Positions 9,777 through 13,141 of a stretch of 34,984 bases of DNA are shown piece after piece. The DNA is from Longimicrobiales bacterium. GTDB taxonomy: Bacteria > Gemmatimonadota > Gemmatimonadetes > Longimicrobiales > Gaopeijiaceae. The position numbers were made by a program, and so were the translations under genes. Below the pieces are notes generated by a model. The model did no database searches and was not told the origin of the DNA. It saw only the letters and a program-made list of their open reading frames with translations. How positions within the stretch are numbered: position 1 is the first letter of the stretch; every line of letters begins with the position of its first letter. The stretch is taken from assembly GCA_028278645.1 (NCBI GenBank), contig JANQDZ010000079.1, positions 1-34,984 on the forward strand, in the 5' to 3' direction.

Positions 9777-9792
9777 CGCTCGATCCTCGTGC

Positions 9793-9821
9793 AAAAAAAA
9801 GACCCGGCATCAGCCGGGTCT
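9793..9821 (-). terminator. Intrinsic terminator of the aldehyde oxidoreductase operon
   Basis: A perfect 9-bp stem (AGACCCGGC at 9800-9808 with its complement at 9813-9821) and an ATCA loop are followed, in the leftward direction, by a run of eight T (A-tract 9793-9800 on the plus strand). It sits 165 bases beyond the oxidoreductase stop and just ahead of the chorismate mutase gene. Confidence 0.9.
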
Positions 9822-9985
9822 CGTGACAAGCCAGATTCCAACCAACTTCAACTACGGGTAATGGGCCTCCGGCTTTGTCCCCGGCTTTTGAGCTGGGGGC
9901 CTAAAAAAATATCGGAAGCTGGTTTTTCCCGCGCACTTGTACATAGCCCGCAGGATGTAAGAGTCCGTCGTTGAAGTCAAGGGCC

Positions 9986-11761
9986 TTATTCCCACCCTTT
10001 TACCTCGTAGTAGTCGTCCACGAGTTTGTGGATGTTGATGGTCGTACCCTCAGCAGGCCCGTCGGGGATGGGATGGTTCACGAACCGATCCGGGAGGGTG
10101 TCGTCCTCCCTCTTGAGGCCCTCTCGCAGGTTAAAATCCCGCTCGACCTGGCTCACGTGGGAGCAGGCCAACCAGAGATCGTCCTTTGAGATCTCCTTGC
10201 CCAGGAATCCCGAATAGGCGTCGGCCGCCAGATCGAAGTCCACCACGTCCATACAGCAGGAGATGTTCTTGCAGATGGTCATGCTGTCCGAAAGCAGTCC
10301 CATGTGCTCGGCGTAGTTCACCAGGGCCCCCTTCCCTTCCTCACTCAACCGGTGTGCAGCTTGGGGGTTCCCGACCCTCCGCATGGCCAGCTCTTCGTCT
10401 CCCGTCAGCTCGATCATGGGCTCGCCCCGGTAGTGATCGCCTCCTCGGGAGTTCACGGCGTTCATCAAGCCGTATCCTTTGATCCCTCTCGGGTCGGCGG
10501 AGAAGAGTTCGAGACCCTTGACCTCGGCCGTGAGCTTCTTCGCCTCGGTTCCAAACTTCTCGGCCGCCCGCTTCGTCCCCTCGGACAGCAGGTCACCGAT
10601 CCCTTGTCGGTGGGCGATCAACTCCGGGAGCTTCAGCAGCGCTTCTTTCGAGCCCCACGACAGATCGATTCCGTCGCAGTCGTCGTCCGAGATGATTCCC
10701 TCGTGGCGGCATTCCATGAGCCAGGCGATGACTTCTCCGGTGCTGATGCAATCCAGGCCCAGCCGATTCACCATGTTCGAGACATGCACCGCCAGCTCCA
10801 GGTCCGACCCACCGACCTTGACCGTAAACGCAGCTTGGGCCTCGTATTCTGGGCCCTCCCCCTCGCTGTAGCTCGTGTAGTTGTACCGTGAGCAGTAGAC
10901 GTTGCAGTTATAACAGGCCTTCCCTTTTACCACATGGTCGCGGCGGAGGGCGTCGGAGCTGACCTTCTCAAGATCTTCAAAAACGGCGCTTCGATAATGG
11001 TAGGCCGGCAACACGCCATAGTCGGCCAAGGCGTCCATGATCCGAGTGGTCCCGTAGAGTTGCCGGGACCGGAACTGGCGGTGAGCCTCGATGTTGGCGA
11101 TCAGGTCAGAGCAGGCTTTTTGGAACCGATCAGGATCGGCCGGGCGGGTCGGCTTCGTCCCTCTGACGACAATGGCTTTGAGCTTCTTCGAGCCCATAAC
11201 CGCCCCCATACCCGTCCGGCCGCAGGCTCGAGCCAGGTTACAGGAGATTATGGCGTACTTAACCATGTTTTCGCCGGCCGGACCGATGGCCGCTACCTGG
11301 AGGTCCGGATCCCCAAGCTCGTCGATGAGTTGGACCGTGGCATCAGTGATATCCAAACCCACCAAGTGTGACGCGTCCCGGAGTTCGATCTGGTCGTTGT
11401 CGATGTAGAGGTACTTCCATTCTTCCGACGCCCCGGAAAAGACGATCTGGTCCACGCCGGCCCACCTCATCTCCGGGCCGAAGAATCCCCTGGCCCCGGA
11501 ATCTCCCAGGATCCCGGTAAGAGGGCTCTTTGCACTAGCGATGATCCGGCAGGTGGCGGCGAACTCGGTCCCTGTCAATGGTCCCACGGAAATGCAGAGG
11601 AGGTTCTCGGGCCCAAGCGGATCGATTCCCGCATCCAACTCTCGAAGGAGCGTGACGCTGTTCCAGGTTCGGCCGCCGATCCCATTCTCGGGCGTTGAAC
11701 CCCGACTGATCTCCTGCGTTGAGAGGTCTACCCTCAGGCTGCTTCCCTGGTAGATGCTCAT
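9986..11761 (-). CDS. aor: Tungsten-containing aldehyde:ferredoxin oxidoreductase, catalytic subunit
   Basis: Protein of 591 residues, close to the usual 600-620. The family oxidises aldehydes to carboxylates (or reduces acids) at a tungsto-bispterin and passes electrons through a [4Fe-4S] cluster. The cluster ligands are visible as C283-x2-C286-x3-C290 (CYNCNVYC) plus C496 (MTICKN), matching the spacing of the Pyrococcus enzyme. Pterin-binding segments include CGRTGMGAVMGSKKLKAIVV and GLDCISTGEVIAWLME. The N-terminal domain begins near residue 3 with the usual YQGSSLRVDLST strand. The start ATG 11761 overlaps the stop of the polyferredoxin gene as ATGA, so both are made together. There is no signal peptide, so it is cytoplasmic. 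Pterin synthesis, tungstate uptake and any NAD-linked subunit are not in the window. The physiological aldehyde is unknown. Confidence 0.93.
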   Translation of the reverse strand: MSIYQGSSLRVDLSTQEISRGSTPENGIGGRTWNSVTLLRELDAGIDPLGPENLLCISVGPLTGTEFAATCRIIASAKSPLTGILGDSGARGFFGPEMRWAGVDQIVFSGASEEWKYLYIDNDQIELRDASHLVGLDITDATVQLIDELGDPDLQVAAIGPAGENMVKYAIISCNLARACGRTGMGAVMGSKKLKAIVVRGTKPTRPADPDRFQKACSDLIANIEAHRQFRSRQLYGTTRIMDALADYGVLPAYHYRSAVFEDLEKVSSDALRRDHVVKGKACYNCNVYCSRYNYTSYSEGEGPEYEAQAAFTVKVGGSDLELAVHVSNMVNRLGLDCISTGEVIAWLMECRHEGIISDDDCDGIDLSWGSKEALLKLPELIAHRQGIGDLLSEGTKRAAEKFGTEAKKLTAEVKGLELFSADPRGIKGYGLMNAVNSRGGDHYRGEPMIELTGDEELAMRRVGNPQAAHRLSEEGKGALVNYAEHMGLLSDSMTICKNISCCMDVVDFDLAADAYSGFLGKEISKDDLWLACSHVSQVERDFNLREGLKREDDTLPDRFVNHPIPDGPAEGTTINIHKLVDDYYEVKGWE

Positions 11762-12270
11762 GAGTCTACCCTCCTCCCCTCAGCCCACCCTTTTCGGAGC
11801 GGCTCAGCCATCACCCCCGCGAAATGCACCCGACGCTGGCTCGGGGTCCCGCCCACCTCCAGGAAGGGTGCGAGGGATACCTCCTTTCCGGTCTCGTACG
11901 TAAGCGCCTCACTTGGGCAGACCTTCACACAGTTCGGGTCGCCGTCGCAAAGGTCACAGAACAGGGGTTCCTCGTAGAATCCCACAGCCCCCACCGGGCA
12001 GGCTTCGGCGCAGAGCCCGCATGCATCGCAGTAGTCCGAGTCCAGGACGATCTCACCCCGGTCTCCCACGGAGAGGGCCTCGGTCGGGCATTCCAGGCAG
12101 GGTTTCTCTTTGCAGCTGAAGCAGGCGATGGCCAGGTCGATTCCGGTTTCGTCCATCTTTGCCACGCGGATGCGGGCCAGGGCGGGAGAAACAGCTCCAA
12201 AGTGCCCGGCACTGCAAGCCACTTCGCACATCCGGCAGCCTACACAGAGTTTTATGTCGCAATGAATCAC
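11758..12270 (-). CDS. Polyferredoxin with four [4Fe-4S] motifs, AorA-like electron-transfer subunit
   Basis: Protein of 170 residues from GTG 12270, which has GGAG seven bases upstream. A TTG at 12291 would overlap the previous gene. Four cysteine groups are visible: CVGCRMCEVAC, CFSCKEKPCLEC, CDACGLCAEACP and CDLCDGDPNCVKVCP, sixteen cysteines in all, plus one extra near the N-terminus. This layout matches the small subunit AorA of bacterial tungsten aldehyde oxidoreductases and the DMSO-reductase/HycB-type polyferredoxins. It lies directly upstream of the catalytic subunit with an ATGA overlap, so it most likely forms its electron wire. No AorC-like FAD/NAD subunit is next to it, so the final electron carrier is not evident. 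Confidence 0.9.
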   Translation of the reverse strand: MIHCDIKLCVGCRMCEVACSAGHFGAVSPALARIRVAKMDETGIDLAIACFSCKEKPCLECPTEALSVGDRGEIVLDSDYCDACGLCAEACPVGAVGFYEEPLFCDLCDGDPNCVKVCPSEALTYETGKEVSLAPFLEVGGTPSQRRVHFAGVMAEPLRKGWAEGRRVDS

Positions 12271-12274
12271 TGAG

Positions 12275-12928
12275 TTACTCCATCCGCTCAATCCGCAGGA
12301 TGACGTTTCCGGCCGGGTCGGGACACAGGATCCGATTGTCTTCCTTCAGCCAGTCTCCGTCTTCCAGGACACGCTGTTTAGCCCCGAGGAGGGGAAGTGC
12401 CGCATGAAGGGCATAAAGGCATACATGCTCTCCGGGGGGGACGTAGAGCCGGCCACTTCGGAGAGTGAATACCGCCCCAGGTTTCATGCGGGAGGTGCAC
12501 TTACCCGTCACTGATTCCACATGAATCTTCAGGTTCGCCAGGTTTCCTTCCGAAGTCCCGCCTTCTTCGGAGAACTCGGTCATTTCCGGGTCGGGATCGA
12601 CGACTTCCCCACGACCTCGATGCCCCTTTTCCTCGGAAGGATCCACGGACCCCGTCTGCTCGATTTGAAAGATGACGCGCCCGTCGGGATCCGGGCATTG
12701 AGCGTGTTTCACCCTCCACATCCAGTCGCTGTCCTTCTCTTCGGCGAGCTTCCGTTCTTTTGGCGTAAGGACGGGGATGAGGCTCTGAAGCGCCCAGAGA
12801 CAGATGTACCCTCCTTCAGGGATCTGGAGATCCCCATCATTCACGGTGAAGTAATCCCCTGGCTCCATGGGCGGGCACGCGGTGCACTCTCCCATCACCT
12901 TCTTTACCGAGACCTTCAACTCGTACAT
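12275..12928 (-). CDS. Tandem TIGR04076-like protein in the aldehyde oxidoreductase operon
   Basis: Protein of 217 residues from ATG 12928, which has AGGAG five bases upstream; a longer open frame upstream is ignored. It contains two copies of one small domain. Copy 1 (about residues 1-95) runs from MYELKVSVKKVMGEC through YICLWALQSLIP to AQCPDPDGRVIFQIE. Copy 2 (about 130-217) runs from LKIHVESVTGKC through HVCLYALHAALP to ILCPDPAGNVILRIE. I recognise this as the TIGR04076 pattern, whose function is unknown. Three cysteines recur at equal places in both copies (G-x-C, V/I-C-L-x-A-L and C-P-D-P), which suggests metal or cofactor binding. An acidic, Gly-rich linker joins the copies. It is first in the operon, four bases ahead of the polyferredoxin start, so a role in assembly of, or electron transfer to, the oxidoreductase is plausible. 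Confidence 0.75.
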   Translation of the reverse strand: MYELKVSVKKVMGECTACPPMEPGDYFTVNDGDLQIPEGGYICLWALQSLIPVLTPKERKLAEEKDSDWMWRVKHAQCPDPDGRVIFQIEQTGSVDPSEEKGHRGRGEVVDPDPEMTEFSEEGGTSEGNLANLKIHVESVTGKCTSRMKPGAVFTLRSGRLYVPPGEHVCLYALHAALPLLGAKQRVLEDGDWLKEDNRILCPDPAGNVILRIERME

Positions 12929-13141
12929 CTCGACTCCTGGCTTCCTGGTTGGTGGGCCGCGTCGGCCACCTTCGAAACCCGGGCACAATGGCACCCCCAT
13001 GGGTCCATGGAAAGACCAGAACCGACCTACAGATTCACATCGACCTCGGATCCGGCCTCCCTCCCTCCGAGCCGGAGGCCTATTATGTCATTTCCAGGAA
13101 GGGAAAACCAAGGCAACTCCTCCAAATCGTTTGATCCGGCC
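12929..13141. other. Divergent intergenic region
   Basis: These 213 bases separate the leftward oxidoreductase operon from the rightward amidase operon and must hold both promoters. I see an inverted repeat GGCCTCC (13054-13060) / GGAGGCC (13074-13080) and a TATTAT at 13081-13086 that could be a -10 box for the amidase, but no convincing -35. No small gene is evident. Confidence 0.4.

Follow-up and report, generated by a model that had tools for sequence, protein, structure and literature searches.

Tungsten oxidoreductases have been divided into five classes, of which class II consists of a catalytic subunit, WorL, together with a four-cluster polyferredoxin, WorS, while class III has an FAD subunit as well (PMC13328260). 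Class II enzymes pass electrons to ferredoxin without an extra subunit (PMC13328260); in the Aromatoleum complex AorABC, AorC caps the ferredoxin chain of AorA (PMC10413684). The text of the five-class paper makes no mention of TIGR04076 (PMC13328260). A gene of this family has been noted beside an isethionate-degrading microcompartment cluster and described as 'potentially involved in redox reactions or iron cluster metabolism' (PMC8667426). Among dedicated partners of related cofactors, XdhC proteins bind and protect the molybdenum cofactor and hand it to their enzyme, and XdhC-like proteins share a single near-invariant cysteine (PMC2997495). Here we describe a tungsten-type oxidoreductase operon that begins with a tandem TIGR04076 gene, found in a 34,984-nucleotide stretch of a Longimicrobiales genome (phylum Gemmatimonadota; contig JANQDZ010000079.1), hereafter the window.

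The operon and its oxidoreductase core

The operon at 9986-12928 comprises three genes on the minus strand, in the order T2, WorS, WorL, with the following features:

12934..12938, minus strand: AGGAG ribosome-binding site of T2, 5 nt before its ATG (from the sequence)
12275..12928, minus strand: T2, tandem TIGR04076 protein, 217 aa (stop codon included in the coordinates; NCBIfam TIGR04076.1)
12650..12928, minus strand: TIGR04076 copy 1 of T2, residues 1-93, with Cys 15, 43 and 78 (sequence and alignment)
12278..12541, minus strand: TIGR04076 copy 2 of T2, residues about 130-217, with Cys 144, 170 and 202 (sequence and alignment)
11758..12270, minus strand: WorS, AorA-like polyferredoxin, 170 aa, 17 Cys, four [4Fe-4S] motifs (Fer4 families, PDB matches, Cys positions)
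9986..11761, minus strand: WorL, AorB-like catalytic subunit of the W/Mo-bis-pterin AFOR family, 591 aa (AFOR_N, AFOR_C, PDB matches, residue table)
9791..9822, minus strand: intrinsic terminator-like hairpin and T tract downstream of WorL (from the sequence)

T2 runs from ATG 12928 to a TAA stop at 12275; WorS starts at GTG 12270, 4 nt past that stop, and its own stop shares ATGA with the WorL start (ATG 11761), a 4-nt gene overlap. Of the terminator-like sites, the strongest lies at 9822-9791 (minus strand), where a T tract follows a 10-bp stem. Gene order, strand, spacing and the single terminator are all as the initial annotation had described them. The flanking genes encode a chorismate mutase, a prephenate dehydratase, a divergent amidase and an epimerase, and among the adjacent genes scanned there was neither an FAD/NAD subunit nor any of the WorABC genes of class IV, which bears out the earlier remark that no AorC-like FAD subunit is adjacent.

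WorL matches both AFOR_N and AFOR_C in full (223.5 and 353.5 bits) and has sequence matches in the PDB to 9mqx_D and 1aor. It keeps the equivalents of the cluster cysteines 288, 291, 295 and 494 of Pyrococcus furiosus AOR, as well as those of Thr243, Glu313 and His448. The equivalent of Tyr427, a residue that is conserved in most aldehyde-oxidising members without strictly defining them (PMC13328260), is instead alanine in the window and in 5/5 other full-length T-linked WorLs examined, so that their substrate may differ. This position is His, Ser, Gln or Asp in some WorLs that have no T neighbour. With a four-motif WorS beside WorL and no adjacent FAD or WorABC genes, the locus is a class II (WorLS) core.

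The last two proteins are AorA-like and AorB-like, as had been pointed out. The best PDB sequence matches of WorS are 8c0z_C, which is AorA, and 9mqx_E. In the WorL tree AorB pairs with the reference enzyme AmWOR1, apart from the clade of the T-linked WorLs. A close relationship to Aromatoleum AorABC was rejected, since there is no AorC and WorL is placed elsewhere in the tree. That T2 takes the place of AorC is only a suggestion, as class II enzymes normally function without an FAD subunit.

Linkage of the tandem TIGR04076 protein to WorL

The whole T2 protein matches NCBIfam TIGR04076.1 with 117.7 bits in two stretches, and each copy alone exceeds the curated cut-off of 33 bits (59.8 and 55.9 bits). 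The three cysteines of each copy lie in the motifs GxC, CLY/WAL and CPDP. The CPDP cysteine is invariant in 75/75 aligned TIGR04076 domains; the middle cysteine is lost in the group linked to aldo/keto reductases and present in every readable WorL-linked copy. Pfam has no model for TIGR04076 and gave no match to T2, no solved structure was a credible relative of T2, and no T relatives were found in viral contigs.

Close relatives of T2 came first from one Gemmatimonadota and two Chloroflexota metagenome-assembled genomes, and genome searches then added others. WorL, or the WorS-WorL pair, lies beside every one of the 12 tandem loci found (3 in Gemmatimonadota, 9 in Chloroflexota), as compared to one of about 76 single-copy loci examined (Fisher p about 6e-14, a value that is indicative only, the loci being related). 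Because the arrangement recurs in two phyla, it is not due to chance. Similarly, both of the sampled genomes of the window's phylum that have TIGR04076 as well as AFOR genes have them adjacent. The initial annotation had turned on two points, a TIGR04076-aor neighbourhood conserved across genomes and cysteine triplets kept by the homologues involved; the neighbourhood is conserved for the tandem form, in 12/12 loci, and three cysteines occur in every readable copy beside aor genes.

Gene order varies between the phyla. In Gemmatimonadota (the window, L062 and G198, where copy 1 is mostly masked) it is T-S-L, and in seven Chloroflexota genomes (G396, G397, G408, G805, G737, G653 and G688) it is S-L-T, the two TIGR04076 copies of G688 occupying two separate reading frames. 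In G747 WorS is split from WorL by transporter genes, all in the same direction. The order in G700 is L-T, and no WorS was found within the 14 kb examined.

Several of these genomes also carry other genes of note. In G700 the place expected for WorS, just upstream of WorL, is taken by a transposase-like frame (L239, 9579-10727). The operon-like run of G747 (L236, 485-9000) contains a LivF-like ABC ATPase, WorS, a creatininase, ABC genes, WorL and T2; the ABC genes encode a peptide-type binding protein and two permeases, and WorS and WorL are four genes apart, which hints at an imported substrate. In G408 (L139, 7959-9380) a SufS-like class V aminotransferase gene, scoring below the SufS cut-off, starts about 60 bp downstream of T2. 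XdhC chaperones act together with cysteine desulfurases; a conserved desulfurase partner was nonetheless rejected, given the sub-threshold score in G408 and the different gene that follows T2 in G396 and G688. The source genome itself has a second WOR operon (G000:C45; L043, 6750-15759), with a TetR-type regulator, a WorL-like subunit and ferredoxin/Hdr-like genes including an HdrA-like protein, adjoining two MoeA-like genes. The genome holds four AFOR genes in all, any AFOR gene being present in just 6/395 genomes of the phylum.

The sole single-copy locus adjacent to WorL, in the Chloroflexota genome G426, is a fusion with WorS: one 322-aa frame carries a TIGR04076 domain at residues 42-128 and a four-cluster ferredoxin at 173-303, and overlaps the start of WorL, the next gene. 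No second fusion appeared among 29 genomes of its class, and the fusion rests on one genome. It is nevertheless the best evidence that T would be physically part of the system, at the WorS side. Since T2 lies beside the enzyme in 12/12 genomes and a single-copy relative is fused to WorS in a thirteenth, T2 is probably a real and previously unrecognised part of this enzyme system, and its standing as a dedicated component of WorLS is well supported. From the same gene-level evidence, T2 is likely to bind WorS or WorL.

The fusion is also the first argument for regarding T2 as a permanent subunit, that is, a cap or docking module at the WorS end whose cysteine triads would hold a metal or cluster and pass electrons to some acceptor, in the position that AorC or WorABC occupies in other enzymes. 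The strict linkage of T2 to WorL, the lack of an adjacent FAD subunit and the precedent of AorC on the AorA chain all agree with such a role, and a lasting fusion to WorS is easier to reconcile with a subunit than with a chaperone that binds transiently. Yet three cysteines per domain make no ferredoxin motif, class II enzymes reach ferredoxin unaided, and the enzyme families next to the single-copy relatives depend on NADPH or flavin and can do without an Fe-S relay; we regard a permanent subunit of this kind as rather unlikely. Far less probable still is a redox or aldehyde sensor that regulates the operon. Conserved thiols and the leading position of T2 in the Gemmatimonadota operons would suit a sensor, but T2 is the last gene in Chloroflexota operons, the domain is fused to WorS in G426, and NCBIfam and Pfam scans of T2 revealed no DNA-binding or kinase domain.

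The history of T2 appears to differ from that of its enzyme. In the WorL tree, all seven T-linked sequences make up a single clade (SH-aLRT 97). The TIGR04076 copies fall into two clades with both phyla in each, and the duplication is therefore older than the divergence of the known members; the AU test neither supported nor rejected a sister relationship of copy 1 and copy 2 of the tandem (p 0.42). Between the window and Chloroflexota the T copies are 66-75% identical, WorL 44% and WorS 40-42%, whereas between the window and G198 the ranking is reversed, with WorL at 81%, T copy 2 at 71% and WorS at 61%. T2 is as similar across the two phyla as inside Gemmatimonadota, which WorL and WorS are not. 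Because of this reversal, shared descent with WorL is not enough to account for T. Taken with the change in gene order, the identity pattern suggests a T gene that has moved or been joined again to the enzyme genes, such that the linkage either outlived a rearrangement or formed anew. A history of this kind would point to selection for linkage.

Partners of the wider TIGR04076 family

TIGR04076 is found in 84/395 genomes of the window's phylum, as compared to 6/395 for AFOR genes, and single copies adjoin unrelated oxidoreductases. For example, single-copy long-form TIGR04076 lies directly upstream of an aldo/keto reductase gene in 29/30 sampled Gemmatimonadota loci, the 30th being the tandem locus of G198. 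TIGR04076 followed by a same-strand aldo/keto reductase gene is an uncharacterised conserved pair (L004-L032, L076-L078) shared by Gemmatimonadota and rhizobial and Rhodobacterales plasmids, and the alphaproteobacterial plasmid operons also include ABC transporters. Luciferase-like flavin enzymes are the neighbours in 9 Chloroflexota loci and on a Rhodococcus plasmid (among such loci are L075, L142, L143, L151 and L156). The association has its exceptions: a luciferase-like match was absent nearby in 6/22 further Chloroflexota single-copy loci, and we rejected the notion that the long form always lies beside an oxidoreductase.

Aldo/keto reductases and luciferase-like enzymes have no tungsten or pterin cofactor and no Fe-S chain. 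TIGR04076 is therefore not tungsten-specific, and a restriction of the family to AOR enzymes was rejected; nor is the domain family as such an AOR electron-transfer or assembly factor. Rather, it is a recurrent partner of unrelated oxidoreductases, with exceptions. The initial annotation's proposal of a new component of these enzymes is supported for T2 itself, a conserved and dedicated neighbour of WorL and WorS, which may act in electron transfer, assembly or redox sensing.

This breadth of partners would be explained if T2 were a pathway protein acting on the small molecule handled by the oxidoreductase, by binding the substrate, catalysing a step or capturing a reactive carbonyl on its thiols. 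The pairing of single copies with aldo/keto reductases and luciferase-like enzymes is consistent with such a role, as are the transporters of the plasmid operons, the peptide-type ABC transporter and creatininase genes in the worS-worL operon of G747, and the altered active site of WorL. On the other hand, one would not expect a separate pathway enzyme to be fused to WorS, the tandem form is found only with WorL, and no common substrate is known. We consider a pathway role unlikely.

Predicted fold, proposed role and comparison with known systems

AlphaFold2 models were built for the tandem from 4 sequences (pLDDT 68, pTM 0.66) and for copy 2 alone from 8 sequences (pLDDT 66, pTM 0.60). For the tandem, a modest model, the top three structural matches were the XdhC/CoxI entries 2we8, 3on5 and 2we7 (Z 5.8, 5.6 and 5.4; next 2.9); the equally modest copy 2 model returned the same three entries (Z 4.7, 4.2 and 4.2; next 2.4), and Z values in this range, 4.2-5.8, are too low to rule out a match to a widespread arrangement. 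Plain Foldseek with the T2 model was not significant (E-values above 0.1), XdhC_CoxI (PF02625) gave no Pfam match in T2 up to E 10, and hhalign comparison of the TIGR04076 and XdhC_CoxI profiles was not significant (probability under 1%). Column shuffles scored as high against XdhC_CoxI in 34-77 of 100 cases for the long-form T sets and in 3/100 for the short form, in which the N-terminal strands and the second cysteine align in register. Sequence homology between T2 and XdhC_CoxI is thus not supported by profile comparison or shuffles, and the models suggest an XdhC-like fold of the TIGR04076 copies as a lead.

The reading we favour, while giving it somewhat less than an even chance, is a class II WorLS enzyme of the tungsten- or molybdenum-pterin kind with a dedicated T2 protein that docks on WorS or WorL and uses its thiols in XdhC-like cofactor handling, and that is not an FAD- or NAD-reducing subunit. 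Judging from the enzyme families, WorL would oxidise a carbonyl compound, or reduce an acid, and electrons would pass from the WorL cluster through the four WorS clusters to ferredoxin or another acceptor. T2 would dock on the WorS/WorL pair, a physical complex being implied by the strict gene linkage and the T-WorS fusion, and its conserved thiols may serve cofactor loading, protection, or sulfur or metal handling, as in XdhC-type chaperones. This chaperone-like part of the role is only suggested by the models. The fold lead and the type of cofactor slightly incline us to a maturation factor, while the fusion favours a permanent cap or docking subunit. Against a chaperone, the nearest TIGR04076 relatives pair with enzymes that have no pterin cofactor, and most tungsten oxidoreductases have no T protein, which is therefore not generally needed for insertion of the tungsten cofactor. 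In a bolder version, which we think doubtful, T2 would consist of two XdhC-like thiol domains and would be the first chaperone or assembly subunit dedicated to cofactor handling in an AOR-family tungsten enzyme; TIGR04076 would be a family of small proteins that partner oxidoreductases in general, and the tandem form its tungsten-specific branch.

A TIGR04076 component is absent from the text of the current classification, and T2 would be an undescribed third component, which could account for the assembly of these enzymes or for their choice of electron acceptor; its linkage also gives the uncharacterised TIGR04076 family a testable functional context. With XdhC/CoxI chaperones T2 shares a near-invariant cysteine and linkage to a pterin enzyme, and the modelled fold of each copy may resemble their N-terminal domain, but T2 differs in having no significant profile similarity, no XdhC_CoxI match in Pfam and no second domain. 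Other NCBIfam TIGR04076 members are single copies that accompany aldo/keto reductases, luciferase-like enzymes or other genes, whereas T2 consists of fused tandem copies, both above the cut-off, that are tied to WorL. Aromatoleum AorABC, of class III, has AorA-like and AorB-like proteins in common with the window, which differs in its WorL grouping and its missing AorC-like neighbour. Closest are the class II enzymes WOR5/ASOR of P. furiosus and GOR of C. bescii, which likewise consist of WorL and a four-cluster WorS with no adjacent FAD subunit, and to which the window adds a strictly linked tandem TIGR04076 gene and a WorL with alanine in place of Tyr427.
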